NCBI RefSeq assembly: GCF_013410565.1
Contig: NZ_JACCFO010000001.1
Location: 5,890,001 to 5,954,000 of the forward strand
Source: Streptomonospora nanhaiensis
GTDB lineage: Bacteria > Actinomycetota > Actinomycetes > Streptosporangiales > Streptosporangiaceae
Length of the DNA stretch: 64,000 bases
Direction of reading: 5' to 3'
The translations under genes were made by a program, and so were the position numbers. Positions 4,475 through 21,615 of this stretch are shown piece after piece. Under the pieces are notes generated by a model. That model made no database searches, was not told the DNA's origin, and worked only from the letters and a program-made list of their open reading frames with translations. Each line of letters begins with the position of its first letter. The first letter of the stretch is position 1.

Positions 4475-5122
4475 ATGATCGACGTCACCCACCAGATCAG
4501 CGCCGTGCGCCGCCGACTGGGCACGCGCATGCTGGAGGCGGGCGAGGCGCGCGTCTCGACGATCAGCCAGACCTACGACGCCCCGCTGGAGGACGTCTGG
4601 GACGCCTGCACCAACCCCGAGCGGATCCCCCGGTGGTTCCTGCCCGTCACGGGCGACCTGCGCGAGGGCGGCCACTACCAGCTCGAGGGCAACGCGGGCG
4701 GCACCGTCCTCTCCTGCGAGCCGCCCACCGCCTTCACCGCCACCTGGGAGTACGGCGACAACGTCAGCTGGATCGAGGTCTCCCTGGGCGCCGAGCCCAC
4801 CGGCACCCGCGTGGAGCTGGTGCACATCGCCCACGTCGACGACGACCTGTGGGCGCAGTTCGGCCCCGGCGCCACGGGCGTGGGCTGGGACATGGCGCTG
4901 CTGGGCCTGTCCCGGCACCTGGCCTCCGGTGTCGCGCTCGACCCCGCCGAGGTCGAGCGCTGGAGCGCCTCCGAGGAGGGCCGCCGGTTCGTGGAGCTGA
5001 GCAGCGACCGCTGGCGCCAGGCCAACGTGGAGGCCGGCGCCGACGAGGCCGCCGCCAAGGCCGCCGCCGACCGCACCACCGCCTTCTACACGGGAGCCGA
5101 CGCCCCCGAGCCCGGCGCCTGA
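4475..5122 (+). CDS. SRPBCC (AHSA1-like) domain protein
   Basis: The product has 215 residues. The SRPBCC fold starts near residue 27 with ISQTYDAPLEDVWDACTNPE and RIPRWFLPVTGDLREGG, the usual opening of activator-of-Hsp90-like START-type domains that hold a hydrophobic ligand. The family GNAGGTVLSCEPP and TWEYGDNVSWIEVSL strands and the GWDMALLGLSRHL helix are present. A C-terminal helical extension rich in Ala/Glu follows. It has a clear ribosome-binding site (GAGGAGACC before the ATG) and follows the ArsR gene by 28 bases, a very common actinobacterial pair whose ligand is generally unknown. A strong hairpin terminator follows. Confidence 0.85.
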   Translation: MIDVTHQISAVRRRLGTRMLEAGEARVSTISQTYDAPLEDVWDACTNPERIPRWFLPVTGDLREGGHYQLEGNAGGTVLSCEPPTAFTATWEYGDNVSWIEVSLGAEPTGTRVELVHIAHVDDDLWAQFGPGATGVGWDMALLGLSRHLASGVALDPAEVERWSASEEGRRFVELSSDRWRQANVEAGADEAAAKAAADRTTAFYTGADAPEPGA

Positions 5123-5153
5123 GCCCCCGGTCCGCGCGCGGCACCCGCCACAC

Positions 5154-5194
5154 GGGGGTGTCCGCCGGCGCGCCCCGCGCCCGCGGACACCCCC
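5154..5194. terminator. bidirectional hairpin terminator
   Basis: GGGGGTGTCCGC (5154-5165) pairs perfectly with GCGGACACCCCC (5183-5194) over 12 bp with a 17-nt loop. It sits between the convergent SRPBCC and ABC exporter genes and can serve both. Confidence 0.75.
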
Positions 5195-5212
5195 GCCCCC
5201 GCCGGGGTCCCC

Positions 5213-7111
5213 TCAGCGCCCCGCCGGCGCCGCCGCCTCGCCCGACCGGTCGGCCGGGGCGAACTGGGTGCGGTACAGCACCTCGTAGCGCCCGCCCGCC
5301 GCCAGCAGCTCCTCGTGCGTGCCGCGCTCCACGATCCGCCCGTGCTCGACCACCAGGATCTGGTCGGCGGCGCGCACGGTGGAGAGCCGGTGCGCGATCA
5401 CCACGGCCGTGCGCCCCTCCAGCGCCTCGGCCAGCGCCTCCTGCACCGCCGCCTCGGAGGTGGCGTCCAGGTGCGCCGTGGCCTCGTCGAGGATCACCAC
5501 CCGGGGCCGGGCCAGCAGCAGCCGCGCGATGGTCAGCCGCTGCCGCTCGCCGCCGGAGAGCCGGTAGCCGCGCTCGCCCACCACCGTGTCCAGGCCGTCG
5601 GGCAGCTCGGCCACCAGGTCCTCCAGCCGCGCCCGGCGCAGCGCGTCCCACAGTTCGTCGTCGCCCGCCTCGGGCCGGGCCAGCAGCAGGTTGGCCCGCA
5701 CGGTGTCGTGGAACAGGTGGCCGTCCTGGGTGACCATGCCCAGCACCTGGCGCAGCGACTCCGCGGTGAGGTCGCGCACGTCCACCCCGCCCAGCCGGAC
5801 CGCGCCGCTGTCGACGTCGTAGAGGCGCGGCAGCAGCGCCGCGATGGTGGACTTGCCCGCGCCCGAGGACCCCACCAGCGCCACGGTCTGGCCGGGCTCG
5901 GCGCGGAAGGTGACGTCGTGCAGCACCTGGTCGCCGCCGCGCGTGTCGAGCACGGCGACCTCCTCCAGCGACGCCAGCGACACCTTGTCGGCGGCGGGAT
6001 AGGCGAACCCGACGTGGTCGAACTCCACCGACACCGGGCCCTCGGGTACTGTCCGCGCGCCGGGCCGCTCGGTGATCATCGGAGCGAGGTCCAGCACCTC
6101 GAAGACCCGCTCGAAGCTCACCAGCGCGCTCATGACCTCCACCCGCGCCCCGGCCAGCTCGGTCAGCGGCGCGTACAGCCGGGTCAGCAGCATCGCCAGG
6201 GACACCACGGCGCCGGCCGCGAGCTCGTCGCGCAGCGCCAGGAACCCGCCCAGGCCGTAGACCAGCGCCAGGGCCAGTGCCGACACCAGGGTCAGCGCGG
6301 TCATGAACACCGTCTGCACCATGGCCGTGCGCACGCCGATGTCGCGCACCCGCCGCGCCCGCGCGCGGAACTCCGCCGACTCCCGCTCGGGCCGGCCGAA
6401 CAGCTTCACCAGGGTGGCGCCGCCCGCCGAGAACCGCTCGGTCATCTGCGTGCCCATGGCCGCGTTGTGCGCCGCCGCCTCGCGCTCCAGCCGCGCCAGG
6501 CGGCTGCCCATGCGCCGCGCCGGCACCACGAACACCGGGAGCAGCAGCAGCGAGATCAGCGTGATCTGCCACGACAGCGCCAGCATGGCGGCCAGCGTCA
6601 GCGCTAGGGTGACCAGGTTGCCCACCACGCCCGAGAGGGTGTCGCTGAAGGCCCGCTGCGCCCCGATGACGTCGTTGTTGAGCCGGCTGACGAGCGCGCC
6701 GGTGCGGGTGCGGGTGAAGAACGCGATCGGCATGCGCTGCACGTGGTCGTAGACGGCCGAGCGCAGGTCCAGGATCAGGCCCTCGCCGATGCCCGCCGAC
6801 AGCCACCGCTGGAGCAGGCCCAGCCCGGCCTCGGCGACGGCGATGCCCGCGATCAGCGCGGCGAGGCCGACCACGACGTCGAAGGGCTCACCGTGGACGA
6901 TCGCGTCGACGATCCGCCCGGCCAGCAGGGGAGTGGCCACCGCCAGCGCCGCCACCACGCTGCTCAGCAGCACGAACCAGCCCAGGGTGCGCCGGTGCGG
7001 GCGGGCGAACCGGCCGATCCGGCGCAGGGTCGGCCACGAGAACGGCCGCCGGTCCTCCTGCGCGTGCATCGCGTTGTACATCGATGTCCACGCGCTGACC
7101 TCCATGCTCAT
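5213..7111 (-). CDS. ABC exporter, fused permease and ATPase (MsbA/MDR type)
   Basis: The 632-residue half-transporter has a six-helix exporter membrane domain (about residues 45-340) with the coupling-region motif LVSRLNNDVIGAQRAFSD, followed by a nucleotide-binding domain. The latter shows Walker A GSSGAGKS, Q-loop VTQDGHLF, signature LSGGERQR, Walker B VVILDEATAHLD and H-loop VIAHRLSTV, all intact. The ATG at 7111 is preferred because AAGGGTGA lies 6-7 bases upstream; an upstream GTG at 7147 is possible. It would act as a homodimer or with a partner elsewhere; the substrate is not readable. A divergent cobalamin-controlled operon starts upstream, and the MerR-like promoter of this gene lies between them. 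Confidence 0.92.
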   Translation of the reverse strand: MSMEVSAWTSMYNAMHAQEDRRPFSWPTLRRIGRFARPHRRTLGWFVLLSSVVAALAVATPLLAGRIVDAIVHGEPFDVVVGLAALIAGIAVAEAGLGLLQRWLSAGIGEGLILDLRSAVYDHVQRMPIAFFTRTRTGALVSRLNNDVIGAQRAFSDTLSGVVGNLVTLALTLAAMLALSWQITLISLLLLPVFVVPARRMGSRLARLEREAAAHNAAMGTQMTERFSAGGATLVKLFGRPERESAEFRARARRVRDIGVRTAMVQTVFMTALTLVSALALALVYGLGGFLALRDELAAGAVVSLAMLLTRLYAPLTELAGARVEVMSALVSFERVFEVLDLAPMITERPGARTVPEGPVSVEFDHVGFAYPAADKVSLASLEEVAVLDTRGGDQVLHDVTFRAEPGQTVALVGSSGAGKSTIAALLPRLYDVDSGAVRLGGVDVRDLTAESLRQVLGMVTQDGHLFHDTVRANLLLARPEAGDDELWDALRRARLEDLVAELPDGLDTVVGERGYRLSGGERQRLTIARLLLARPRVVILDEATAHLDATSEAAVQEALAEALEGRTAVVIAHRLSTVRAADQILVVEHGRIVERGTHEELLAAGGRYEVLYRTQFAPADRSGEAAAPAGR

Positions 7112-7181
7112 CGGCTTCACCCTTTTCGTCGTCGTCGGCGGCCGCACGGCCGTTCCTACCGGCTCCCTGCGACAGACCGGA

Positions 7182-7211
7182 CGATAATTCCTCTACCTAA
7201 CTTGAGGTCAA
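7182..7211 (-). promoter_or_regulatory. putative promoter with MerR-like dyad for the ABC exporter
   Basis: Read on the minus strand there is TTGACC (7211-7206), an 18-base spacer and TTATCG (7187-7182). The long spacer begins with CTCAAGTT, and ACTTGA-GG-TCAAGT forms a dyad at 7200-7213. Long-spacer promoters with ACCTCAAG-type dyads are characteristic of MerR-family targets. No MerR gene is in the window, so this is tentative. Confidence 0.35.
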
Positions 7212-7269
7212 GTCGGTGCGGACGCCGCCCGCGGCCCCGGCCCTCCGCCGCGGCCGGGCGCTCGCTAGC

Positions 7270-7425
7270 CTGGGACGGCGACGGGACGACAGGAAGCCGG
7301 TGCGACTCCGGCACGGTCCCGCCACTGTGACCGGGGAGCCGAACCCGCTCACGGCCACGGCGCCGCGCGCGCCGGAAGGCCGGGCCAGGCGCTGATCCGG
7401 GAGTCAGGACACTGACCCGTCGCGA
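7270..7425 (+). promoter_or_regulatory. cobalamin (B12) riboswitch
   Basis: The segment carries the hallmark AdoCbl/cobalamin riboswitch order: ACAGGAAGCCGGTGCGACTC, then CCGGCACGGTCCCGCCACTG followed by TGACC, a variable middle hairpin, then GGAAGG and the closing GGGAGTCAGGACACTG. It ends about 115 bases before the btuF-like start and lies in the same orientation. By family knowledge it binds adenosyl- or other cobalamins and represses downstream expression when B12 is plentiful. This makes the downstream binding protein and permease likely B12 or corrinoid importers. Confidence 0.92.
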
Positions 7426-7538
7426 CTCGTCACCCAGGGGCGCGGACCCCGGAGGCGGAGCGCGCCGGCGGCACCCCCGTGTGCCCCCGTCCGCGGGCCG
7501 CGCCGCGCGCCGCGCCCGGCCTCGCGGAAGGACCAGAC

Positions 7539-8546
7539 GTGCGCCCATCCCCTCCCTCCCCGCACCCCGCCCGGCCGGGCCGGGCGGCCAGGTCGGCCGC
7601 CGCCGCGGCCGGAGTGGTCCTCGCCCTCAGCGCCTGCGGCACTGCCGCGGGCGCCGGCGGCGGCGCCCCGGCCGAGGGCTACCCCGTCACCGTGCGCGAG
7701 TGCGGGCGCGAGGTCACCGTTTCCGCGCCGCCGCAGCGGGCGGTGGCCATGAACCAGCACGTCGCCGAGATCATGCTCGCCCTGGGCCTGGCCGACCGGA
7801 TGGTGGGCACCGCGTTCCTGGACGACGCGGTCCTGCCCGAGCTGCGCGAGGACTACGCGTCCGTCCCCGTGCTCGCCGAGCGCTACCCCTCCTACGAGGC
7901 GCTGCTGGCCGCCGAGCCCGACTTCGTCTACGCCGGGTTCGCGGCCAGCGCCTTCGACCCCGCCGAGGGCCGGGGCCGCGACGCGCTGGAGGCGGCCGGC
8001 ATGACCACCTACGCCTCCGTCGAGCAGTGCGCCACGGACGTCGACCTGGACACGGTCGGCACCGAGATCCGCAACATCGGCCGCCTCTTCGGCGTGGAGG
8101 AGCGCGCCGACGAACTCGTCGCCGACATCGAGGCCGAGGTCGCCTCGGTCGAGGCCCGGCTGGCGGGCACCGACCCGGTGGACGTGCTGGTGGTGGACTC
8201 CCTCGACGCCACCGTCTTCACCTCCGGCGGCGCCGGGATCGCCGACGACATGATCGCCTCCGCCGGCGGGCGCAACGTGTTCTCCGACGTGGACGACGTG
8301 TTCGCCGACGTCTCCATCGAGCAGGCCGCCGCCCGCGACCCCGAGGCGATCCTCTTCTACGACTACGGGTCCACCACCGTCGAGGACAAGCGCCGGGCGG
8401 TGCTGGCCCAGCCCGCCCTGGCCCACGCGCCCGCTGTGCGCCGGGAGCGGTTCGCCGAGCTGCCGCTGTCCTCCACTGTCGTGGGCGTCCGGGTGGGCGA
8501 CGCGGTCACCCGCATCGCCGAGCAGCTCCACCCCGAGGCGTTCTGA
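7539..8546 (+). CDS. cobalamin/siderophore-type ABC substrate-binding lipoprotein (BtuF/FecB fold)
   Basis: The 335-residue protein begins at a GTG supported by GGAAGGA seven bases upstream. A signal peptide ends in the lipobox LALSAC, so it should be a lipid-anchored extracellular protein. The mature part shows the class III binding-protein pattern: VSAPPQRAVAMNQHVAEIML, LGLADRMVGTAF, YEALLAAEPDFVYAG, VFTSGGAGIADDMIASAGG and FADVSIEQAAARDPEAILFY. The linking alpha-helix between lobes is visible. The upstream cobalamin riboswitch argues for B12 or another corrinoid as ligand rather than a ferric siderophore. The permease gene follows after 6 bases. Confidence 0.88.
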   Translation: MRPSPPSPHPARPGRAARSAAAAAGVVLALSACGTAAGAGGGAPAEGYPVTVRECGREVTVSAPPQRAVAMNQHVAEIMLALGLADRMVGTAFLDDAVLPELREDYASVPVLAERYPSYEALLAAEPDFVYAGFAASAFDPAEGRGRDALEAAGMTTYASVEQCATDVDLDTVGTEIRNIGRLFGVEERADELVADIEAEVASVEARLAGTDPVDVLVVDSLDATVFTSGGAGIADDMIASAGGRNVFSDVDDVFADVSIEQAAARDPEAILFYDYGSTTVEDKRRAVLAQPALAHAPAVRRERFAELPLSSTVVGVRVGDAVTRIAEQLHPEAF

Positions 8547-8552
8547 GCGGGG

Positions 8553-9707
8553 ATGGCCGACACCGCCGACACCCCCGCCGCACCGCGCGCCCCCGGCGGC
8601 ACCCCCGCCGCCCCGGCCCCGCCGGGGCCACCGCCCGGCCGATCCCGTCCCGCCGCCGTCCCCACCCGGCGCGGCCGGCTCCCGCTCCCGGTGGCGCTGG
8701 CGCTGCTGCTGGCCGCCCTTCCGCTGGCGATGACGCTGGGCGTGGGCGCGGGCTCGGTCGGGATCTCGGCCGCCGACACCTGGCGCATCCTCCTCCACCA
8801 GGCGGCCCCCGGGCTCGTGCCGCCCGACTGGCCGCCCGCCACCGAGGCCATCGTGGTCACGGCGCGCCTGCCCCGCGTGCTGCTGGCCGCGCTCGTGGGC
8901 GCGGGCCTGGCCGGGGTGGGGCTGGTGCTCCAGACGCTGGTGCGCAACCCGCTGGCCGACCCGCTGCTGCTGGGGGTGTCCTCGGGCGCCACCTTCGGCG
9001 CGGTGGTGGTCGTGGTGTTCGGCGTGCGGCTGTTCGGCGGCCAGTCGCTGCCGGCCACCGCGTTCCTCGGCGCGCTGGCCGCGCTCGTGGCCGTCTACCT
9101 GCTGGCCCGCACCGGCGGCCGGATCAGCACCCTGCGGCTCATCCTGTCCGGGGTGGTCATGGCCGAGGTGCTGTCGGCCGCCGCCGCGCTGGTCATCATG
9201 ACCTCGGGCGACCCCCACGCCGCCGCCCTGGTGCAGCGCTGGACCCTGGGCGGGCTGGGCGGCACCACGTGGGCCACCCTGCCCGCGCCCGCCGCGGCCG
9301 TGGCGGTCAGCACCCTGGTCGTCGCGGCGCAGACGCCGGCGCTCAACGTGTTCGCACTGGGCGAGGAGACCGCCACCGGGATCGGCCTCAACGTCGGCGG
9401 GTTCCGCGCCGCGATGTTCGTGGTGGTCTCGCTGGCCACGGGCGTGCTGGTGGCGGTCAGCGGCCCGGTGGGGTTCGTCGGGCTGATGATGCCCCACATC
9501 GCGCGCATGCTCGTGGGCCCCGACCACCGGCGCGCCCTGCCGGTGGCCGTGCTGCTGGGGGCGCCGTTCATGGTCCTGGCCGACCTGGTCGCGCGCACGC
9601 TGGCCCGGCCCGAGGAGATCCCCGTGGGGATCCTCACCGCGCTGTGCGGGGCGCCGTTCTTCCTGTGGCTGATGCGGCGCGGCACCCGGCGCGGTGCGGC
9701 GGGCTGA
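8553..9707 (+). CDS. FecCD/BtuC-type ABC transporter permease
   Basis: The 384-residue membrane protein has a Pro/Ala-rich cytosolic head of about 45 residues, then ten hydrophobic segments. Family motifs include RLPRVLLAALVGAGLAGVGL, VRNPLADPLLLGVSSGATFG, LSGVVMAEVLSAAA, LNVFALGEETATGIGLNV, SGPVGFVGLMMPHIARMLVG and EEIPVGILTALCGAPFFLWL. It forms the translocation dimer for the binding protein encoded 6 bases upstream. No ATPase gene follows; the next gene is convergent after 21 bases, so the ATP-hydrolysing subunit must be encoded elsewhere or shared. Confidence 0.92.
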   Translation: MADTADTPAAPRAPGGTPAAPAPPGPPPGRSRPAAVPTRRGRLPLPVALALLLAALPLAMTLGVGAGSVGISAADTWRILLHQAAPGLVPPDWPPATEAIVVTARLPRVLLAALVGAGLAGVGLVLQTLVRNPLADPLLLGVSSGATFGAVVVVVFGVRLFGGQSLPATAFLGALAALVAVYLLARTGGRISTLRLILSGVVMAEVLSAAAALVIMTSGDPHAAALVQRWTLGGLGGTTWATLPAPAAAVAVSTLVVAAQTPALNVFALGEETATGIGLNVGGFRAAMFVVVSLATGVLVAVSGPVGFVGLMMPHIARMLVGPDHRRALPVAVLLGAPFMVLADLVARTLARPEEIPVGILTALCGAPFFLWLMRRGTRRGAAG

Positions 9708-9728
9708 GCGGGTGGAGGCGGATGCGGC

Positions 9729-10925
9729 TCACACCCCGCCGAGGGGCCCGGGGTCCACGGGATCGGCGGGGGTGTCCACCCACAGCCGGTGCCCGCCGCC
9801 GGCGGTGACGGTCAGGCCGAGCCGGTCGCGCCCGGGCGACCCGGCCGCGCGCCACACCTCGCGCGCGGCGGCGATCTCGGCCCACAGGTCGCGCGGACCG
9901 GCCCGCAGGGTCTCGTAGGGCGGACCGGCGGGCACGTACTCGCCCAGGGCCCAGGAGCCGGCGCGGTCGTAGACGTAGACCGTGGCCTCGCCCGCCGCCG
10001 GGTGGTTGTCGGGGTCGGCCTCGAAGGACGCGTAGGCGAGCCCTGGCACCCGCCACCCCAGGACCACGCCCCAGCCGGGGTCGCGGTCGGCCACCACGCG
10101 CGGGTTGAGGTCGGTGTGCCCGGCCACGGCGGCGGGGTCGTGTTCGTCGACGAAGGTGTGCCAGGGGTCGGCGGAGCGCCGCTGGCCGCGCAGCCACATG
10201 AACGCGGCGTCGGCGATCATCCGGCCCTGGGCCGTGCCCTCGCCGACCTCCAGGCGCAGCAGCCCGGCGGAGGTGAAGCCCGGCCCCCACGGGCTCACGA
10301 CCGTTCCGCCGGGCCGGGTCCGGGTGATCCAGGCCGCCGGGACGCTGCGGGCCGCCACCGTGGCGATCACGCGGTCATAGGGCCCCTCGGGCGGGTGGGC
10401 GCCGTCGCCGACGACCAGCCGGGGCTTGTAGCCGAACCCGTGCAGCCGCTCGCGGGCGCGTTCGGCCACGCCGGGGTCGATCTCGACGGAGGTGACGTTC
10501 TCGTCGCCCAGCCGCTCGCACAGCAGGGCGGTGCTGTAGCCGGTGCCGGTGCCGATCTCCAGCACGGTGTCGCCGTCGCGGGCGTCCATGGCCTGGAGCA
10601 TCGCCACCACCAGGGAGGGCTGGGAGATGCTGGAGGAGGGGACCACGCCGGAGCCGTCGGGCCCGGTCGGCGAGCCGTCGTCCACCTGGGTGATGAGGGC
10701 GTAGTCCTCGTTGACCCACCGCGCGACGTCGGGGTCGGTGCGGGGGTAGGGCTCGAACAGTTCGCGGTGGCCCGCGCGGCGGACCCACACCGTGTCGGGG
10801 ATGAACGCGAGCCGGTCCACGGCCAGGACCGCGCGGTGCCAGGCGGGATCCTGGACCGCGCCCTTGGCCGTGAGGACCCGGGCGATTTCCGCGCCGGGAA
10901 GGAACGCCTGTGCGGATTCGGTCAC
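9729..10925 (-). CDS. PCMT-like (protein L-isoaspartyl methyltransferase-type) SAM methyltransferase
   Basis: The 398-residue protein has an N-terminal PCMT domain: SSSISQPSLVVAMLQAM, the SAM-binding motif VLEIGTGTGYSTALL, VTSVEIDPGVAERARERL and DRVIATVAARSVPAAWI. A C-terminal extension of about 180 residues (WHTFVDEHDP, GHTDLNPRVVADRDPGWGVV) is not part of ordinary repair enzymes. It resembles the long PCMT homologues that accompany ribosomal peptide systems (graspetides, FxLD lanthipeptides, imiditides), where they make aspartimide or isoaspartate. The GTG start overlaps by 4 bases (GTGA) the stop of a 26-codon ORF, so translation is coupled. No ATP-grasp or LanM enzyme is visible. A plain repair role remains possible. 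Confidence 0.85.
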   Translation of the reverse strand: MTESAQAFLPGAEIARVLTAKGAVQDPAWHRAVLAVDRLAFIPDTVWVRRAGHRELFEPYPRTDPDVARWVNEDYALITQVDDGSPTGPDGSGVVPSSSISQPSLVVAMLQAMDARDGDTVLEIGTGTGYSTALLCERLGDENVTSVEIDPGVAERARERLHGFGYKPRLVVGDGAHPPEGPYDRVIATVAARSVPAAWITRTRPGGTVVSPWGPGFTSAGLLRLEVGEGTAQGRMIADAAFMWLRGQRRSADPWHTFVDEHDPAAVAGHTDLNPRVVADRDPGWGVVLGWRVPGLAYASFEADPDNHPAAGEATVYVYDRAGSWALGEYVPAGPPYETLRAGPRDLWAEIAAAREVWRAAGSPGRDRLGLTVTAGGGHRLWVDTPADPVDPGPLGGV

Positions 10926-11002
10926 TTGTTGGGGTCCTGTCCGTCGCCGTCGCTGCCCCGGCCGGAGTCGCGGGGGACGTCGGGGTTCTCGTGCCCGCCC
11001 AT
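10922..11002 (-). CDS. 26-residue Asp/Gly-rich small peptide coupled to the methyltransferase
   Basis: An ATG at 11002 preceded by a strong TGGAGG opens a 26-codon frame ending in TGA, which shares GTGA with the methyltransferase start. The peptide begins MGGHENPDVPRDSG and ends GDGQDPNK. It has six Asp and two Asn residues in contexts such as DS, DG and NP, which are the classical succinimide-prone motifs, and no Cys. Small size, good ribosome-binding site and coupling suggest either a precursor substrate for the PCMT-like enzyme or a translational leader. No homologue is known to me, so the function is inferred purely from context. Confidence 0.55.
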   Translation of the reverse strand: MGGHENPDVPRDSGRGSDGDGQDPNK

Positions 11003-11178: not shown

Positions 11179-13485
<2,307 letters not shown>

Positions 13486-14115
13486 TCAGCGCGCGGGCGG
13501 GGCCAGCGCGGTCAGTTCGGCGCGCAGCGCGGGGTCGGTGGCGAACTCCCCGCTCAGGTGCGAGGTCACCATGGCCGCGCCGTGGGCCTGGGCGCCGCGC
13601 AGGGTCATGCAGGCGTGCTCGGAGCGGATCAGGCACGCCGCACCGCGCGGCGACAGGTGGGTGTCGAGCGCGGCCACCGTCTGCTCGCCCAGCCGCTCCT
13701 GCACCTGGGGCCGGCGCGCCAGCTCCTGCACCAGCCGGGCCAGCTTGGACAGCCCCACGATCGGCGCGCCGGGCTGGGGCAGGTAGGCCACGGTGGCCCG
13801 GCCGGAGAACGGCAGGATGTGGTGCTCGCACATCGCCACGAAGGGGACGTCGACCGCCGCGATCACGCCTTGGCGGCCCGACTCCGCGGGGAAGCGCACC
13901 TTGAGGTGCCGCTCGGGGTCCAGCCGCAGCCCGCTGGTCATCTCGGCCAGGGCTGCGGCGAAGCGCTCGGGGGTGCGGCGCGTGGACTCGGTGTCGCAGG
14001 GCAGCCCCAGCTCCCGCAGCAGCGCGCGGGCGTGGGCGACCGCGGGCGCCTCGGCGCGGCCGGGGGTGTCGAGGGCGGCGGCCGTGTCGCGCGTGTCGGT
14101 GGGCAGGGTGGTCAT
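13486..14115 (-). CDS. folE: GTP cyclohydrolase I (FolE type)
   Basis: The 209-residue enzyme converts GTP to 7,8-dihydroneopterin triphosphate, the first step toward both folate and 7-deazaguanines. The zinc and active-site motifs are intact: VPFVAMCEHHILPFSGRATV (Cys and His ligands), IVGLSKLARLVQ and SEHACMTLRGAQ (third Cys ligand). GAGGAG stands ahead of the ATG. It is the last gene of the minus-strand run that also encodes QueD, QueE and QueC, 80 bases after queD. A dedicated FolE copy inside a queCED group normally signals preQ0-directed metabolism rather than folate supply. Confidence 0.93.
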   Translation of the reverse strand: MTTLPTDTRDTAAALDTPGRAEAPAVAHARALLRELGLPCDTESTRRTPERFAAALAEMTSGLRLDPERHLKVRFPAESGRQGVIAAVDVPFVAMCEHHILPFSGRATVAYLPQPGAPIVGLSKLARLVQELARRPQVQERLGEQTVAALDTHLSPRGAACLIRSEHACMTLRGAQAHGAAMVTSHLSGEFATDPALRAELTALAPPAR

Positions 14116-14195
14116 CGGGTCTCCTCGCTCGCGGGTGGGCGGGTGCGCGGGTGCGGACCGGCCGCCGGTGGGGCCCGGCCGCCGCTCCGGGATCC

Positions 14196-14750
14196 TCACC
14201 GCGCGGTCTCCCGCCACTGGGCGGTGTTGACATGGGTCTCGCTGACGCACACGGCGCTGACGCGGGCGCCGGGGGCACACGGCAGGGCCGCCAGCAGGTC
14301 GGCGGCCACCCGGGCCACCAGTTCGGCCACCGCCTCGACCGTGGGGTAGGCCAGGTCGCGGGCGAACCGCTCGGCGGGCCGCGGGTCGGCGGCGCCGAAC
14401 CGGAACACCTTGCAGCCGTGGTCGGGCAGCAGCTTGGCCAGCGGGTCGGCCGAGCCGAGCATGGCGCCGTGGTCGAGCTGGGTGTCGATCCACGACCGCA
14501 GCCCGGCCTTGAACGAGCCGAACTCCACCACGGTGCCCTCGGCCAGGCGGGGCGCCGTCACGGTGACCTCGGCCCACCAGGAGTGGCCGTGCAGGTTCTC
14601 GCACTTGCCCGCCAGGTGGGGCAGCCGGTGGGCGGTCTCGAAGTTGTGCCGCACGGCCACCGCGTGCTCGGCGGCGGGGCGGGCGGTGGCGGCGGGTGGG
14701 GCCGGCGCGGGGGCGGCGGCTGCCCCCGCGCCGGGGCCGGTGGTCTCCAT
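14196..14750 (-). CDS. queD: 6-carboxy-5,6,7,8-tetrahydropterin synthase (QueD)
   Basis: This is a 184-residue member of the 6-pyruvoyl-tetrahydropterin synthase fold. After an Ala/Pro-rich head of about 30 residues come the zinc-site histidines in HNFETAHRLPHL and ENLHGHSWWAEV, the preceding catalytic Cys in GKCENLHGH, LDHGAMLG and VSETHVNTAQW. It turns dihydroneopterin triphosphate into carboxytetrahydropterin. Its ATG shares one base with the queE stop (TGATG), so the two are translationally coupled. The Ala/Pro head is unusual for the family and probably disordered. Confidence 0.93.
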   Translation of the reverse strand: METTGPGAGAAAAPAPAPPAATARPAAEHAVAVRHNFETAHRLPHLAGKCENLHGHSWWAEVTVTAPRLAEGTVVEFGSFKAGLRSWIDTQLDHGAMLGSADPLAKLLPDHGCKVFRFGAADPRPAERFARDLAYPTVEAVAELVARVAADLLAALPCAPGARVSAVCVSETHVNTAQWRETAR

Positions 14751-15385
14751 CAGTCGATCCCCAGGTGCTTGTGTGTCTGCAGGGAGAGGTGCCAGCGGGG
14801 GTGGTCCAGGCAGTACTCCAGCGCCGCCTGGGTGTTGTGCTCGATCTCGGGGCCGTCCATGGGCTGGAGGCGGAACGACGCGAAGTCCAGGTGCTCGAAC
14901 CGCGCGGGGTCGCCGCCCTCCTGGGGGTAGACGAGCTTGAGTTCGTCGCCGCGCTCCACCACCAGGTCCGCGCCGATCTTGGGGCTGACGCACAGCCAGT
15001 CGACGCCCGGGGGCGGTGCCATGGTGCCGTTGGTCTCCACCGCGACCCAGAACCCGCGGGCGTGCAGGGCGTCCAGCGCGGCGGTGTCCAATTGGATGAG
15101 CGGCTCGCCGCCGGTGCACACCACGAACCGGTACTCGGCGGTGCCCGGGCGCCACTGCCGCTCGACGGCCGCGGCGAGGTCGTCGGCGGTGGCGAACCGG
15201 CCGCCGTTCTGGCCGTCGGTGCCCACGAAGTCGGTGTCGCAGAATTGGCAGACGGCGCGGTGCCGGTCCTTCTCGCGGCCGGTCCACAGGTTGCAGGTGG
15301 CAAACCGGCAGAACACGGCCGGCCGCCCGGCGTGGGTGCCCTCGCCCTGGAGCGTGTAGAAGATCTCCTTGATCAGGTAGGCCAT
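14750..15385 (-). CDS. queE: 7-carboxy-7-deazaguanine synthase (QueE, radical SAM)
   Basis: The 211-residue radical SAM enzyme opens with YLIKEIFYTLQGEGTHAGRP, the signature opening of QueE. The cluster motif is the expanded type found in this family: CRFATCNLW, then a 14-residue insertion, then CQFCDTDFVG. Further motifs are CTGGEPLIQLD and VAVETNGT. It contracts the pterin ring to 7-carboxy-7-deazaguanine (CDG). The gene overlaps queC and queD by one base at each end, so queC-queE-queD form one tight translational unit. Confidence 0.94.
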   Translation of the reverse strand: MAYLIKEIFYTLQGEGTHAGRPAVFCRFATCNLWTGREKDRHRAVCQFCDTDFVGTDGQNGGRFATADDLAAAVERQWRPGTAEYRFVVCTGGEPLIQLDTAALDALHARGFWVAVETNGTMAPPPGVDWLCVSPKIGADLVVERGDELKLVYPQEGGDPARFEHLDFASFRLQPMDGPEIEHNTQAALEYCLDHPRWHLSLQTHKHLGID

Positions 15386-16077
15386 CAGACCGCGCTCCGG
15401 TAGGCGATGGGGTCGGGCACCCCGGCCTCGGCGAACCCCTTCAGCCGCAGCCGGCAGGTGTCGCAGCGGCCGCAGGCCCGGCCCTGGGGGTCGGGGTCGT
15501 AGCAGCTGGAGGTCAGGGAGTAGTCCACGCCCAGCTCCAGGCCGCGCTTGATGATCTCGCCCTTGGTCAGCCGCACCAGCGGCGAGCGCAGCCGCAGCCG
15601 CCTGCCCTCGACCCCGGCGCGGGTGGCGAGGTTGGCCATGGCCTCGAACGCCTCCAGGTACTCGGGGCGGCAGTCGGGGTAGCCGCTGTAGTCGACCGCG
15701 TTGACCCCGGTGAAGATGTCGAAGGCGCCGGCGGTCTCGGCGTAGGCCAGGGCGAAGGACAGGAACACGGTGTTGCGCGCGGGGATGTAGGTGACGGGGA
15801 TCCCCGCCGCGATCTCCTCGGGGGTGCTGTCCTTGGGCACGGGGATGTCGTCGGTGAGGGCGGACCCGCCGAAGACCCGCAGGTCGATGTCGGCGACCAC
15901 GTGGCGGGCCACGCCCCGGTGCGCGGCCACGCGGTGGGCGGCCGCCAGTTCGACGCTGTGGCGCTGGCCGTAGCGGAAGCTCAGCGCGTAGGGCTCGAAG
16001 CCCTCGTGCTGGGCGATGGCCAGGGCCGTGGCCGAGTCGAGGCCGCCGCTGAGAAGGACGATGGCGCGTGGTTTCAT
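15385..16077 (-). CDS. queC: 7-cyano-7-deazaguanine (preQ0) synthase (QueC)
   Basis: The 230-residue PP-loop ATPase turns CDG into preQ0 using ammonia and ATP. The nucleotide motif [15 protein letters not shown] is at the N-terminus, followed by [28 protein letters not shown] and [18 protein letters not shown] four-Cys zinc site (SCYDPDPQG, then CGRCDTC) closes the protein. It follows the P450 gene by 71 bases. No queF-type nitrile reductase is seen, so the local pathway stops at preQ0. Confidence 0.95.
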
Positions 16078-16148
16078 GCGTGCCTGCTTTCACGTGGACG
16101 GTTGGGAGGGCGGCCGGGCCGGGGCTGGGCGGGCGCCGGGCGCGGCTG

Positions 16149-17333
16149 TCAGGTGGACCAGGTGGCGGGCAGCCGCAGCGGGGCGCGCAGATCGGCGTCG
16201 TCCCAGGCCAGGCTGTGGGCGGGCACCGCCAGCCGCGCCCCGGGCAGGCGCTCGGCGAGCACGGCCAGGCCGATGCGCAGCTCCATGCGGGCCAGGTGGG
16301 CGCCCAGGCAGTGGTGGGGGCCGCGCCCGAACGCCAGGTGCGGGTTGGGCCGCCGCCGGGGGGCGAGGTCGTCGGGGTCGGCGAACACGGCGCGGTCGCG
16401 GTTGGCCGAGGCGATCACCGGCATCACCGCCTCGCCCCGCGCGATGGCCCGCCCGCCCAGCTCCAGGTCCTCGGTGGCCACCAGCAGCACGAACGCGTTC
16501 ATCAGCGGCACATGGCGCAGCAGCTCCTCGACGGCGGTGTCGAGGACGTGCGGCGAGGCGCAGACCTCGGCCAGGCCGTGCGGACGCTGAAGCAGGGCGG
16601 CCAGCGCCGCGCCCAGGTGCTGGACGACGGTGTGGTAGCCCGCTATGAGCACGCTCTGCACGACCAGGGCGCGGCCGTCGCGGTCGAGCGCGGGGTCGGC
16701 GGCCAGCGCGGCCGGCAGGGCGGAATCGGGCCCGCGCCGCCCCCGGTCGGCCAGCCGCCCGGCGTAGTCCTCCAGCGCCGCCACCGAGGCCAAGAACGCC
16801 TCCGACGGCACACGGGCGGGGTTCAGGACGGTCCGCACGTGGGGGCCGAACTCCGCCTCCTCGGCGGGGTCGACGCCCAGCAGCGCGCACAGCACGCGCA
16901 GCGGGAAGGGGGCGGCGAACCCGGCGCGGAGGTCGGCGGGCGGCCCCTGGCGCACGAGGTGGTCGGCGCACTCGTGGGCGAGCGCGCGGATGCGGCCGGC
17001 CCCGGCCTCCAGGCGGCGCGGCGAGAGGAACGCGGCGGCTGCGCTGCGGTGGCGGGCGTGGTCGGCGCCGCTGAGTTCGAGGAGCGTGGGGCGGGGCGGG
17101 CGCGCGGGCGGGTGCCCCGGCGGCCAGGTGCCGGCCAGGGGCCGCACCAGGCGGGGGTCGGCCAGCGCCGCGCGGACGTCGGCGTGGCGGGTGACCAGCC
17201 AGGCGGGTTCGCCCTTGGGCGCCGCGACCCGGCACACGGGGTCGTGGGCGCGCAGGGCGGCGTAGGCGCGCGGGGCGCCGGGCGAGCCGGGTTCGGCCTC
17301 GGGGATCGGCGGCGCCGCGACCTGGCCGGTCAC
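16149..17333 (-). CDS. cytochrome P450 with atypical I-helix
   Basis: The 394-residue soluble bacterial P450 has the K-helix ExxR in VEELLRHVPLMN and an intact heme loop FGRGPHHCLGAHLARME with the thiolate Cys near residue 339. The I-helix reads SVLIAGYHTVVQHLG; the usual acid of the AGxE/DT motif is His. The Arg normally preceding the ATEDLELGG strand is Leu (FVLLVATEDL). These changes suggest altered oxygen activation. The GTG start overlaps the stop of the NRPS gene by 4 bases (GTGA), so the P450 is coupled to it and probably acts on the same intermediate. Electron-transfer partners are not encoded nearby. Confidence 0.92.
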   Translation of the reverse strand: MTGQVAAPPIPEAEPGSPGAPRAYAALRAHDPVCRVAAPKGEPAWLVTRHADVRAALADPRLVRPLAGTWPPGHPPARPPRPTLLELSGADHARHRSAAAAFLSPRRLEAGAGRIRALAHECADHLVRQGPPADLRAGFAAPFPLRVLCALLGVDPAEEAEFGPHVRTVLNPARVPSEAFLASVAALEDYAGRLADRGRRGPDSALPAALAADPALDRDGRALVVQSVLIAGYHTVVQHLGAALAALLQRPHGLAEVCASPHVLDTAVEELLRHVPLMNAFVLLVATEDLELGGRAIARGEAVMPVIASANRDRAVFADPDDLAPRRRPNPHLAFGRGPHHCLGAHLARMELRIGLAVLAERLPGARLAVPAHSLAWDDADLRAPLRLPATWST

Positions 17334-20300
17334 CGGGGATCCCCCTCGTGGGCGAGGCCGTCCTCGGCGGTGCGGCCCGCGGGACAGGCGGCGGGACGGC
17401 GGATGAACCCGGAGGTGAAGAAGTACTCCAGGTAGCGGTCGATCAGCGCGGTGTCGACCGGCGGGCAGTCCAGTCCGCTGCCGGCCAGGGCGGTGTCGGT
17501 GTTGGCGCGGCCCAGTTCGGGGAAGACCCCGGCGGTGTACATCTCCTTGACCGAGATGTCGGTGCGGTTGCCCCGGTCCACGCACAGCGACACGAACGGC
17601 GCGGTGGGGCTGGTGGGGTTGTCGGCCACGTGCAGCACCAGGCTCAGCACCCACCGGTCGTAGGGCAGGGTCATGATGTCGAAGCCGGCCGCGCGCATGC
17701 GCTCCACCACCGCGGCCAGGCCGCTGGGCCGGGGGTTGGTCAGGTGGTAGGTGCGCCGCCCGGTGTGGTGGCGGGTGGCGATGTGCACGACCGCCTCGGC
17801 GAGGTGGTCGACCGGGACGAAGTCCATGGGCAGGTCGATGTCGGGGGCGAACCCGACCTCGGCGATCATCTTGAACAGCGAGCAGATGGCGGTCTCGGTG
17901 TTGCACACGCCGGTGTCGGCGGGGCCGGTGACCTCGTAGGGCCGGTGCACCGCCACCGGCAGGCCCTGGTCGGCGGCCTCGTGCAGCAGCTGCTCGGCCA
18001 CCCACTTGCTCTCGGCGTAGCCCATGGTCAGCCGGTCGGCGTGGGCCAGGGGGAGGTCTTCGTCGACCCGGCGCACCCCGGCGGTGCCGAACCCGGCCAG
18101 CACCGCCACCGTCGACAGGAAGTGCACGGGCACCCGGCGGCGCGCGGCCAGCCGGACGACCTCGCGGGTGCCGTCGACGTTGGCGGCGCGCAGGGCGGTG
18201 TAGGGGTAGATGAAGTTCACCTGGGCGCCGGAGTGCAGCACGAGGTCGAGGGTGGCCGCGAGGTCGGCGGCGCGGTCGGGGTCGAGGCCCAGGCCCGGTC
18301 GGGTGAGGTCGCCGGGGAAGCACACCAGGCGGTCCTCGGCGCCCTCGGCGCGCACCCCGTAGCGGGTGAGCGCGGCCAGGACGCGCTGGCGGGCGTGGTC
18401 GGTGTCGTGGGCGCGCACCGGGCAGTGCACGGTGGCGCCGGTGCGGGCGAGCAGGGTGCCCACCAGGTGCGCGCCGACGAACCCGGTGGCGCCGGTGACC
18501 AGCACCGCTCGAGGCTCGCGCGGGCACGGCGCGGGGCCCTCGGCGGGCGGGAGTTCGAAGCCCAGGCGGGACTCCGCGGCGAAGTCCAGCCCGGCCGGGG
18601 GCGCGGCGGCGGTGTCGGGTTCGGCGTCGCGCAGCGCGGCGACCGCGGCGGTGAACTCCTCCACGGTGGGCCCGGCCAGCAGGGCCCGTACCAGGGCGCT
18701 GCTGTGGGAGTGGTGGACGGCGAGCATGGCGCGGGTGCGGTTGACGACCTCGGCGGCCAGCAGGGAGTCGCCGCCGATGCGGAAGAAGTCGTCGCCGGGG
18801 CCGGGGCGCACGCCCAGCACCAGCTCCCACACCACGGTCACCACGGTGCGCACGCGCGCCAGCGGGTCGGCGGGGTCGGCGTCGTCCATGGCGCTGTGCA
18901 GGGCGGCGCGCACGCGCGGGCCGGGGGCGTCGGCGGGTTCGGCGGTGGCGTTGTCGGCGGTGTCGGCCGTGCGCAGCGCGGTCAGGCGGGCGCGGTCGAC
19001 CTTGCCCGTGGCCGACACCGGGAACGCGGCGAGTTCGCGGATGGTGCGCGGCACCGCCGGGGCGGGCAGCCAGGCGGCGCAGAAGCGGCGCAACTCGGCG
19101 AGGTCGATCCCGGTGGTGCCGGCGGCGGGCGTGACGAAGGCGTGGAGGGCGCCGGTGCCAGGGTCGAGTTCGACCGCGGCCTCACCGACGTCGGGGTACT
19201 CGCGCAGCCGGGCCTCGACCTCCTCGGGCTCGATGCGCTGGCCGCGGACCTTGAGCTGGCGGTCGACGCGGCCCAGGTACTCCAGCATGCCGTCGGAGCG
19301 CAGCAGCGCGCGGTCGCCGGTGCGGTACAGCCGCTCGCGGTCGCCGGTGGGCGCGGTGACGAACCGCTCGGCGGTCAGCGCGGGATGGCCGGGGTAGCCC
19401 GAGGCCAGGCCGTCGCCGCCGACATACAGCTCTCCGGCCTCGCCGACGACGGCGGGGGCGCCGTCGGCGCGCAGCACCCGGCAGGTGGAGTTGGCCAGCG
19501 GGCGGCCGATGGGCACCTGGCGGGCGTCGGCGGGCAGGTCGCGCACCCGGTACATGGTCGAGGCCACCGTGTTCTCGGTGGGGCCGTAGAAGTTGACGAC
19601 CTCGGTGCGGGGGCAGGCGCGCATGACGGCGCGGGCGAGGTCGGGGTCCATGGCCTCGCCGCCGGCCGACACGAAGTCCAGCTCGGAGAAGGCGCCGGGG
19701 CGGGTGCGCGCGACGTGGTGGAACACACTGGTGGTCAGGAAGGCGACGTTGACGTTCCCCAGGCGCAGGTGGTCCTCCAGCGCGGCGGGGGAGACCATCA
19801 CGTCGCGGTCGGCGACCACGAGTTCGGCGCCGCGGGCCAGCGCCGACCAGATCTCGATGGTGGAGGCGTCGGAGGAGAGGTTGTAGCCGTGCAGCACGCG
19901 GGTGCGCGGGCCGATCGCGGGGAACTCCGGCTCCGACATCACCAGGCGGACGACGCCGCGGTGGGTGACGGCGACCGGCTTGGGGCGGCCGGAGGACCCC
20001 GAGGTGAACATGATGTAGGCCGGGGCGCCGGCGTCGCCGGGGTGGGGGATGCCGGGTTCGGGCAGCTCGGCGTGGGGGCTGGGCGGGGTGCTGATGTCGA
20101 GGTCGAGGCGGGCCGACAGGCGGCGCACGCGGCGGCTGGCGCCGGGCAGCGCCACGGCGACGTGCACCCCGGCCTCCTCGGCCATGGCGTTGAGGCGGGC
20201 GGGCGGGAGGTCGTCGTCGAGCGGGACGTAGGCGGCGTTGGCGCGCAGGATGGCGAGGAAGGCCACCAGCGCCTCGGGGCCGCGCCGCCCGCACACGCCC

Positions 20301-20539
20301 ACGGCGTCGCCGGGGCGCACCCCGGCCTCGCGCAGCCGCCCGGCGAGCTGCCGGGCGCACATCTCCAGCTCCCAGTAGCGGAAGACGCGCTGGTGGTGGC
20401 TGACGGCGGGGGTGTGGGGGTAGAGGAACGCGTTGGCGGCGAAGATCTCGTGCAGCCGGGAGTCGCGCGGGTAGTCGGTGCGGGGGCCGACCGCCGTCGC
20501 GGGGGCACCGGATGCGGTGGCTGGTCCCATCGTCGTCAC
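17330..20539 (-). CDS. single-module NRPS: adenylation - carrier - thioester reductase
   Basis: The 1069-residue protein has an adenylation domain (about 30-520; FTSGSSGRPKPVAVTHRG, NFYGPTENT, YRTGDRA, GRVDRQLKVRGQRIE, core Lys in VSATGKVDRAR), a carrier domain with its phosphopantetheine Ser near 590 (DDFFRIGGDSLLAAEVV) and a short-chain-dehydrogenase-type reductase (about 675-1060; VTGATGFVGAHL, catalytic YAESKWVAE). There is no condensation domain. By-eye specificity residues are D-A-I-F-V-A-F-V-A, with Asp at the amine-binding position, favouring a hydrophobic alpha-amino acid. Such proteins release an aldehyde or alcohol by NADPH reduction. The GTG at 20539 follows AAAGGA. It is coupled to the P450 and lies in the preQ0 gene run. 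Confidence 0.93.
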   Translation of the reverse strand: MTTMGPATASGAPATAVGPRTDYPRDSRLHEIFAANAFLYPHTPAVSHHQRVFRYWELEMCARQLAGRLREAGVRPGDAVGVCGRRGPEALVAFLAILRANAAYVPLDDDLPPARLNAMAEEAGVHVAVALPGASRRVRRLSARLDLDISTPPSPHAELPEPGIPHPGDAGAPAYIMFTSGSSGRPKPVAVTHRGVVRLVMSEPEFPAIGPRTRVLHGYNLSSDASTIEIWSALARGAELVVADRDVMVSPAALEDHLRLGNVNVAFLTTSVFHHVARTRPGAFSELDFVSAGGEAMDPDLARAVMRACPRTEVVNFYGPTENTVASTMYRVRDLPADARQVPIGRPLANSTCRVLRADGAPAVVGEAGELYVGGDGLASGYPGHPALTAERFVTAPTGDRERLYRTGDRALLRSDGMLEYLGRVDRQLKVRGQRIEPEEVEARLREYPDVGEAAVELDPGTGALHAFVTPAAGTTGIDLAELRRFCAAWLPAPAVPRTIRELAAFPVSATGKVDRARLTALRTADTADNATAEPADAPGPRVRAALHSAMDDADPADPLARVRTVVTVVWELVLGVRPGPGDDFFRIGGDSLLAAEVVNRTRAMLAVHHSHSSALVRALLAGPTVEEFTAAVAALRDAEPDTAAAPPAGLDFAAESRLGFELPPAEGPAPCPREPRAVLVTGATGFVGAHLVGTLLARTGATVHCPVRAHDTDHARQRVLAALTRYGVRAEGAEDRLVCFPGDLTRPGLGLDPDRAADLAATLDLVLHSGAQVNFIYPYTALRAANVDGTREVVRLAARRRVPVHFLSTVAVLAGFGTAGVRRVDEDLPLAHADRLTMGYAESKWVAEQLLHEAADQGLPVAVHRPYEVTGPADTGVCNTETAICSLFKMIAEVGFAPDIDLPMDFVPVDHLAEAVVHIATRHHTGRRTYHLTNPRPSGLAAVVERMRAAGFDIMTLPYDRWVLSLVLHVADNPTSPTAPFVSLCVDRGNRTDISVKEMYTAGVFPELGRANTDTALAGSGLDCPPVDTALIDRYLEYFFTSGFIRRPAACPAGRTAEDGLAHEGDPR

Positions 20540-20647
20540 GTGGGGGTCCTTTCTTGGGGCGCGGGGCCCGGGAATGGAGGGGCGCGGCCGGGGGAGGGGC
20601 GGGCCGCGGTGCTGCGCGGGGAGGAGTGCTGTCGTAGGCGGCGCCGG

Positions 20648-21112
20648 TCAGGCGGTGGCCTCGGCGATGGCCTGCGCGAAGGAGGTGAAGTCGCCGCTGC
20701 GCCAGCGCCGCGGCGCCATGCGCAGGGTGATGTCGTCGCGGAGTTGGTCGCGGGTGGCGTCGAGGTAGCGGACCGCCTCGTCGGCGCCGAGGTAGCGCAC
20801 GGCCATGGACTCCCGGACGTCGGGGTCGGCGGGGTCGGTGACCTCCACCACGGGGCCCTCGACGCTGACGTAGCGGTAGGGGGCGGTCTCGTCCTGGACG
20901 CACAGGCTGAAGCGGCCGGCGGCGTTCATCAGGCGGGCCTTGACGGTGTCGCGCCCGGTCTGCACGGCGAGCGTGCCGCCGGGGGTGTAGTCGTACCAGA
21001 CCGGAATAAGCAGCGGCCCGCCACCGGCCCGGGGGTCGTCGACGCCCAGCACGCCCACGTGCACGCCTGCGAGGAACTTCTCCCGCTCGTCACGGGACAT
21101 GGACGGATGCAT
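20648..21112 (-). CDS. PPOX-class (pyridoxamine 5'-phosphate oxidase-like) flavoprotein
   Basis: The 154-residue split beta-barrel protein is of the FMN/F420-binding PPOX superfamily: LIPVWYDYTPGGTLAVQTG, KARLMNAAGRFSLCVQDE, YRYVSVEGPVVEV and ITLRMAPRRWRSGDF. It is the first gene of the minus-strand run into the NRPS, P450 and preQ0 genes, 108 bases before the NRPS start. A strong GGGGAGACC stands ahead of the ATG. In natural-product clusters such proteins can be F420- or FMN-dependent reductases; in isolation many are uncharacterised. The cofactor cannot be decided by eye. Confidence 0.85.
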   Translation of the reverse strand: MHPSMSRDEREKFLAGVHVGVLGVDDPRAGGGPLLIPVWYDYTPGGTLAVQTGRDTVKARLMNAAGRFSLCVQDETAPYRYVSVEGPVVEVTDPADPDVRESMAVRYLGADEAVRYLDATRDQLRDDITLRMAPRRWRSGDFTSFAQAIAEATA

Positions 21113-21370
21113 TGGTCTCCCCGGAATGAGTGCTTCAAATGACGGCGTGTCGCTGATTGCGGTCGCCTTGCAGACTCGATCTCATTGTTCCCTTCTGTCC
21201 GGGGAGTGGAAACAGGTAAATCGAATCGCGCGGCAAAAGTCAGCAAATTCGGGTTTGCTGGGGACGGTAGGTAGGGGGGTGTTTCGTGCGTCCGTTTCCC
21301 GGTTGCGCCATAACGGGGGAATCCCTGGTCTGTCGGGGTTTGCGATCCGGGGTTTGGGGCGCACGAAAAG
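21113..21370. other. gene-free leader region of the preQ0/NRPS operon
   Basis: No convincing gene is present. The segment is less GC-rich than its surroundings and should hold the promoter of the minus-strand operon that begins at 21112. CAGCAAA (21241-21247) and TTTGCTG (21254-21260) form a 7-bp hairpin or operator. Short open frames here lack ribosome-binding sites and family resemblance. Confidence 0.5.
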
Positions 21371-21397
21371 AGCCCGACCGGTGTTTCCGGTCGGGCT
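21371..21397 (-). terminator. rho-independent terminator after the DUF397 genes
   Basis: AGCCCGACCGG and its perfect complement form an 11-bp stem with a 5-base loop. On the minus strand the stem is followed by TCTTTTCG. It lies 36 bases after the second DUF397 stop codon and isolates the regulatory module from the preQ0/NRPS operon. Confidence 0.85.
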
Positions 21398-21432
21398 GGG
21401 GGAGACGCTGTTTCGGGTCCTAATGCAGGGGA

Positions 21433-21615
21433 CTACAACTCGTCGCCCTTGACCGCCTGGAGGAAGGCGTCCCACTCGCGGGCGGGGAAGGGGAGGGGGT
21501 CGAGGTGGCGGTTCTGGGTGTCGCGGACGAGGGTGAGGGACCCTTCGGCGACCTCGACACAGTCAGGTTCGTTGTTTCCGCTGTAGCTGCTCTTGTGCCA
21601 GCAGTTGCCGTTCAC
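21433..21615 (-). CDS. DUF397 protein (second tandem copy)
   Basis: The 60-residue acidic protein reads NCWHKSSYSGNNEPDCVEV at its N-terminus, and RDTQNRHLDPLPFPAREWDA follows, the full DUF397 pattern. The GTG at 21615 has a strong AAGGAGGAG and overlaps the stop of the preceding copy by GTGA. DUF397 proteins commonly sit beside XRE/DUF5753 regulators in actinomycetes and are thought to modulate them, in the style of antitoxin or anti-regulator partners. It shares an 87-base identical block with the upstream copy, so the pair arose by a recent tandem duplication. Confidence 0.9.
   Translation of the reverse strand: MNGNCWHKSSYSGNNEPDCVEVAEGSLTLVRDTQNRHLDPLPFPAREWDAFLQAVKGDEL

Follow-up and report, generated by a model that had tools for sequence, protein, structure and literature searches.

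Known 7-deazaguanine natural products are mostly nucleosides or simple amides. By established reactions, FolE, QueD, QueE and QueC convert GTP to 7-cyano-7-deazaguanine (preQ0). In the huimycin, toyocamycin and sangivamycin clusters, folE-queD-queE-queC homologues serve a secondary metabolite of which preQ0 is an intermediate; in huimycin a methyl group and N-acetylglucosamine are then added, matching methyltransferase and glycosyltransferase genes in the cluster, and a pyridoxamine-phosphate-oxidase-like (PPOX) gene, KALB_4075, lies just 3′ of huiG, outside the seven genes reported sufficient (PMC7439116). Nucleobases are also joined to peptide-derived scaffolds: the guanitrypmycin and guatyromycine clusters (GutD, PtmB, gym) combine a cyclodipeptide synthase with a nucleobase-transferring cytochrome P450, PtmB and GutD coupling guanine and hypoxanthine to cyclo-Trp-Trp and the gym-cluster P450s acting on cyclo-Tyr-Tyr (PMC13122648 and PMC10092475). 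Here we analyse a 64,000-nucleotide stretch of the high-GC actinobacterium Streptomonospora nanhaiensis (contig NZ_JACCFO010000001.1, positions 5,890,001 to 5,954,000; hereafter the window) that holds a seven-gene operon in which a full set of preQ0 genes continues from genes for a PPOX flavoprotein, a one-module non-ribosomal peptide synthetase (NRPS) with a reductase domain, and a P450. We consider it probable, at roughly 0.6, that this operon directs the biosynthesis of a secondary metabolite containing or needing a 7-deazaguanine.

An operon joining preQ0 synthesis to a reductive NRPS

The seven genes form a minus-strand run from 21112 to 13486 in the order given by the original prediction, which open-reading-frame coordinates and family profiles (Pfam and NCBIfam, applied to ten window proteins, that is, the seven operon products and three neighbours) both bear out (Table 1). 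The gene overlaps described there are likewise present in the sequence: the NRPS and P450 genes share GTGA at 17330-17333, an overlap that sets the start of the P450 gene, and queC/queE and queE/queD meet in TGATG at 15385 and 14750. The intergenic gaps measure 108 bases (PPOX-NRPS), 71 bases (P450-queC) and 80 bases (queD-folE). A terminator scan of 13000-21600 returned no site inside the operon and a sole site upstream of PPOX (21397-21371), although this is weakly informative because shuffled sequences average 0.9 sites.

Table 1. Operon genes, their neighbours and related loci discussed in the text. Positions are those of the window unless a locus is named.
Feature	Description	Position	Strand	Length (aa)	Profile or motif
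PPOX	pyridoxamine-phosphate-oxidase-like flavoprotein, Rv1155/F420-type	20648..21112	-	154	PF12900, 31.4 bits, above cut-off
NRPS	single-module, adenylation-thiolation-reductase (A-T-R)	17330..20539	-	1069	PF00501, PF00550, PF07993, TIGR01746
P450#1	cytochrome P450, first of the cluster	16149..17333	-	394	PF00067; heme motif FGRGPHHCLG; I-helix AGYHT
queC	preQ0 synthase	15385..16077	-	230	TIGR00364, 194.2 bits (cut-off 150.3)
queE	7-carboxy-7-deazaguanine synthase, radical SAM Cx14CxxC type	14750..15385	-	211	TIGR04508, 350 bits (cut-off 240)
queD	6-carboxytetrahydropterin synthase, long form	14196..14750	-	184	PF01242, 79.3 bits, above cut-off
folE	GTP cyclohydrolase I	13486..14115	-	209	PF01227, 180.8 bits; NF006826, 176.8 bits (cut-off 162)
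GH9 cellulase	next gene downstream of the operon	11179 to 13134 or 13467
Methyltransferase	PCMT-like	9729-10925	-		ATP-grasp peptide maturase methyltransferase model, 292.6 bits (cut-off 380)
P450#2	solitary orthologue in the window's genome	G000:C1:5235851-5237077
Genes beside P450#2	two large genes	L146:4032-8578	-	920 and 595
dpd locus	DpdB-DpdA-DpdB and a 296-aa gene, divergent from queC-queE-queD	L132 (G000:C1:3838500-3858000), 4764-10957			DpdA, 632 bits
Congener remnant	counterpart of the operon in G080	L177 (G080:C50, 1-3000)

Profiles and alignment place all four enzymes of the FolE-QueD-QueE-QueC route in the operon with their catalytic motifs kept. Intact by alignment are the QueC cysteines, QueE Cx14CxxC, QueD C-x3-HGH and FolE CEHH, together with the NRPS adenylation (A)-domain motifs A3, A5, A7, A8 and A10, the Ser of its peptidyl carrier protein and the Tyr-Lys pair of its short-chain dehydrogenase/reductase fold; we take these motifs to have the functions usually assigned to them. 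QueD scores 60.7 bits against the NCBIfam QueD model TIGR03367, below the cut-off of 89.25, and exceeds that of Pfam PTPS; its five PDB matches are all QueD or PTPS proteins (best 4.1e-6). The PPOX protein scores 63.7 bits against TIGR03618 (cut-off 79.05) and falls in the Pyridox_ox_2/Rv1155-like family, with Rv2991 as the single, weak match in a PDB profile search.

The NRPS consists of AMP-binding, PP-binding and NAD_binding_4 thioester reductase domains, with no condensation domain matched. By alignment its ten-letter A-domain code is DAIFVAFVAK, a hydrophobic pocket in which the Asp is retained. Among 67 rows, which include the window and two outliers (L062 and L064) and in which code positions were placed by motif, DAIYVAFVVK occurs 33 times and DAIYAAFVVK 18 times, the remainder being variants. 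We assume GrsA numbering for these positions and take the Asp to be position 235, with its customary meaning; the NRPS should then load an α-amino acid and not 7-carboxy-7-deazaguanine (CDG) itself. CDG as NRPS substrate is therefore disfavoured, by a rule that we presume to apply. The wider claim of the original prediction, that one operon links preQ0 synthesis with a reductive NRPS and a P450, holds, and the arrangement recurs in several genera.

Like the huimycin and toyocamycin clusters, the operon carries dedicated folE-queD-queE-queC homologues, but it differs from huimycin in having an A-T-R NRPS and a P450 and neither a methyltransferase nor a glycosyltransferase. No glycosyl- or phosphoribosyltransferase, as a pyrrolopyrimidine nucleoside cluster would have, was found among the seven operon and three neighbouring genes scanned. 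Compared with the guanitrypmycin type, the scaffold would come from the A-T-R NRPS and the base would be preQ0-derived and made within the operon; a cyclodipeptide synthase was absent from the ten window proteins scanned, the rest of the genome not having been searched for one. In agreement with the original prediction, no pathway with this gene set appeared in titles and abstracts of the open-licence literature (subscription papers lay outside this scope). The enzyme families are all known, and their combination is new within the titles and abstracts searched.

A widespread core, sometimes accompanied by preQ0 genes

The front part of the operon (PPOX, NRPS and P450) is one instance of a core found widely among actinobacteria. 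A scan of species genomes with the window NRPS gave 79 loci from the best 80 of 87 candidates, and 69 of these hold a close homologue (54-67% identical), in most cases in a gene order like that of the window. In 60 of the 69 loci the gene directly upstream of the NRPS is PPOX; directly downstream, at least one P450 is found in 54 and two or more in 48. Core genera include Streptomyces, Nocardia, Nocardiopsis, Actinoallomurus and Streptoalloteichus, among others. The window follows the core order of PPOX, A-T-R NRPS and P450, and its NRPS and P450 are orthologous to those of the core by tree; its operon has one P450, the second core P450 (P450#2) being absent from it. No product for the core was found in the open-licence literature, in which the searches were not all aimed at the core. 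A second core subtype (L010, L015, L024, L025, L027, L034, L035, L037, L043 and others) has P450s in a clade apart from P450#1 and P450#2 of the window, and several of its loci carry the code DAIYAAFVVK.

Homologues of que genes or folE lie beside the NRPS in six of the 69 loci, as in the window, whereas none was detected in the other 63 (tblastn with window proteins, which may miss very different que types; one flank is shorter than 5 kb at 8 of the 69 loci). The alternative raised in the original prediction, that the two blocks occur independently and never together, has a mixed outcome: they are mostly apart, but they do meet. In N. potens (L061), P450-P450-queC-queE-queD-folE includes all four preQ0 genes in window order. 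N. ganjiahuensis (L006) has queE-queD-folE with a queC of another type on the opposite strand, and a further Streptomonospora (L059) has queD and folE beside the NRPS and queC elsewhere in the genome. In Bailinhaonella, folE, queC and queE stand beside the NRPS at L003, and queD, PPOX and a second NRPS occupy L004 of the same species; the pathway genes are divided between these two loci in complementary fashion and together make a full set. Actinosynnema (L030) carries folE-queE-queD-queC, a divergent set (34-53% identical) whose QueE falls below the QueE cut-offs.

In P450 trees, the sequences of the window and its own genome form one clade with those of L003, L006, L059 and L061, with support in a tree of 28 rows of 100/99 for P450#1 and 99/98 for P450#2. 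Marinitenerispora (L007), which has two minus-strand genes downstream and a genome without a queC match, falls just outside the P450 clade. The NRPS tree, from which Actinosynnema was left out, recovers a clade of seven rows with 100% support, within which L004 and N. alba (L005) are nested. Five of the six loci with que or folE homologues thus group with the window in one clade. Because the Actinosynnema que set is different and divergent, the join apparently arose twice, and the simplest reading would be that preQ0 genes were gained once at the base of this clade and once more, independently, in Actinosynnema.

This distribution bears on whether the two halves of the operon serve one product. 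They might instead be co-localised and chemically separate, yielding preQ0 (or a P450-modified preQ0) and a base-free NRPS alkaloid that share only transcription, as the many relatives carrying the core without preQ0 genes would suggest. We regard this as unlikely, because the same NRPS core was apparently joined twice by unrelated que sets, because L006 has a different queC beside queE-queD-folE, and because both halves decayed together in a congener (see below).

A QueC search of 49 core genomes (representing 50 of the 69 loci, two loci coming from one genome) found full-length matches of at least 130 bits in 13, over the cut-off in 11, and short matches near 20-30 bits only in ten further genomes. 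Of 200 genomes in the window's family, 7 carry the core (scores above 1180 bits, the next match down being at 702), 30 carry QueC over the cut-off and 5 carry both. QueC over the cut-off thus accompanies the core in 5 of 7 genomes, compared with 25 of 193 without it (Fisher p = 0.0009, or 0.0045 minus the window's genome), an association uncorrected for kinship and based in part on a scan that scored only three candidates in most genomes. In four of the five family genomes having both, QueC and the core lie less than 5 kb apart.

Other uses of preQ0

The original prediction had noted that no tgt or DNA-modification gene adjoins the operon. For TGT (PF01702) this extends to the whole genome: no match was obtained in the window's genome, nor in any of the nine genomes searched (the window, its congener G080, the five que-linked genomes and those of L005 and L007), and the same search matched the family in 14 of 14 control genomes. 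On the missing TGT, queuosine supply was rejected. For DNA modification it is true of the neighbourhood, DpdA and DpdB not being among the ten window proteins scanned, but not of the genome, in which a separate locus (Table 1) holds DpdA with two DpdB beside it. DpdA had no match in the other eight of the nine genomes (control: 3 of 14 matched, none over the cut-off). The 19.5-kb stretch examined at this locus has a lower G+C content, 0.678. dpd islands, which like the window operon use preQ0, often carry queC, queD or queE (PMC11888242); here dpdA and dpdB lie elsewhere in the genome with que genes of their own.

Since the dpd locus holds its own queC-queE-queD, DNA modification has its own supply. 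With TGT absent and DpdA confined to a separate, self-supplied locus, the preQ0 of the operon is, as judged from gene content, most likely dedicated to secondary metabolism. That the que block might provide spare preQ0 for tRNA queuosine or DpdA/DpdB DNA modification finds some encouragement in the presence of a DpdA/DpdB locus in this genome, the QueC and QueE of which share 74-76% identity with their window counterparts. This explanation is nonetheless very improbable given the lack of TGT in 9 of 9 genomes, the que genes of the dpd locus itself, the absence of a DpdA match in the five other que-linked genomes searched and the continuity of the window que set with PPOX-NRPS-P450; on the second and third of these grounds, supply of DNA modification was rejected.

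A possible nucleobase-coupling P450 outside the operon

In the other clade members that have P450s, P450#2 is flanked by P450#1 and the que genes. Its orthologue in the window's genome is solitary, about 0.67 Mb from the operon, with an open reading frame; it matches that of L061 at 56-60% and groups in trees with the P450#2 sequences of que-linked clusters, within their clade. The P450#2 of congener G080 is also open, 80% identical to this orphan and likewise off the operon. Two large genes lie beside the orphan (Table 1), and the 595-aa one has weak NRPS matches.

In the PDB, P450#2 is best matched by PtmB, a CYP121 entry and GymB1, which from its name we take to be a gym-cluster P450. In a tree with six reference P450s only, the split uniting P450#2, PtmB and GymB1 has support of 100/100. 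A tree keeping P450#1 and P450#2 together without the references was rejected by the approximately unbiased test (p-AU = 7e-6), picked after seeing an earlier P450 tree that carried a long-branch warning. P450#1 of the window is nearest in the PDB to 6j82, 4aw3/5uhu (mycinamicin P450) and 6j85; 6j82 and 6j85 are presumably TleB and HinD. By analogy the orphan P450#2 is a likely candidate for the coupling enzyme, though the relations of both P450s to these references are distant.

Concerted loss in a congener

The flanks of the operon are matched in G080 at 84-88% DNA identity. Between them, P450#1 (80% identical) and queC (86%) are the operon genes still open, and PPOX and the NRPS, next to the upstream flank shared with the window, are remnants only. 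Within 230 bases after queC come short matches to the junction of queE and queD (14691-14767) and to the end of folE (13441-13487), so queE, queD and folE are also remnants. The loss together of five of the seven genes, drawn from both halves, fits a single pathway.

The same remnants warn that the pathway may be subject to decay or relaxed constraint in the genus. The window could accordingly hold a decaying cluster, formerly a full pathway, that has lost P450#2 from the operon and is perhaps silent. Consistent with this, PPOX, NRPS, queE, queD and folE are remnants in G080; four further congeners searched gave no queC match; the ratio of non-synonymous to synonymous substitution rates (dN/dS) between the window and G080 is 0.45 for P450#1, 0.39 for queC and 0.54 for P450#2; and the window P450, the orphan P450 and the window NRPS sit on long branches, a possible sign of relaxed constraint. 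By contrast, none of the seven window genes is interrupted and their motifs are intact, the orphan P450#2 keeps an open frame here and in G080, and one of three flanking genes has an equal dN/dS of 0.45 (the two others 0.18 and 0.26). On balance we hold such decay to be decidedly unlikely.

Proposed pathway

In the pathway that we propose, FolE, QueD, QueE and QueC, families assigned from sequence, would convert GTP to preQ0. The A-T-R NRPS would load one hydrophobic α-amino acid and release it as an amino-aldehyde with NAD(P)H, and the aldehyde would dimerise or condense to a cyclic imine or dihydropyrazine, the redox state of which the PPOX flavoprotein may set. P450#1 and the orphan P450#2 would then oxidise this scaffold and attach it to the base, much as other P450s link cyclodipeptides to guanine or hypoxanthine; we infer that a 7-deazaguanine would be covalently coupled to the amino-aldehyde-derived scaffold by a P450. 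In relatives without preQ0 genes the core would work base-free or with an ordinary purine, preQ0 genes having presumably been added to it in the window clade and in Actinosynnema. More tentatively, and with the odds clearly against it, a P450 of the nucleobase-transferase kind might join on-site 7-deazaguanine to an NRPS-reduced scaffold to give an alkaloid class with neither sugar nor cyclodipeptide, reached twice through the addition of preQ0 genes to a more ancient core, which may itself use ordinary purines.

Several observations weigh against a dedicated 7-deazaguanine pathway of this kind. An exclusive clade of the five que-linked NRPSs was rejected (p-AU = 1e-75), as L004 and L005 nest inside it, and N. 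alba (L005) keeps the NRPS with no PPOX, P450 or que homologues found nearby, its genome also giving no match to queC. Full-length QueC is missing from 36 of the 49 core genomes; the core can therefore do without preQ0, and the idea that it generally requires preQ0 is rejected. P450#2 is only distantly related to PtmB and GymB1 among the six references, and the long branches noted above also weigh here. The A-domain code strings are absent from the open-licence literature searched, leaving the amino acid unnamed. In G080, moreover, the pathway looks lost though a queC-queD-folE set (L178) and P450#2 are kept.

That preQ0 genes repeatedly occur with a single-module reductive NRPS, and with P450s akin to enzymes that couple purines, points to a still unmapped branch among purine natural products, one whose gene set is clear. 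Setting clusters that have preQ0 genes beside those that lack them provides a natural comparison for the product of the core and for base acceptance by its P450s.

Neighbouring genes and other preQ0 operons

The GH9 cellulase and the methyltransferase downstream of the operon (Table 1) were rejected as cluster members, no homologues of them being seen in related loci, and a search of a plasmid collection gave no match at E 1e-150. The methyltransferase may be a member of a graspetide-type locus. Two further que/folE operons with a long QueD, L137 in S. griseocarneus 132 and L178 in G080 (G080:C98), lie away from any NRPS core and are possibly other preQ0 natural-product clusters.

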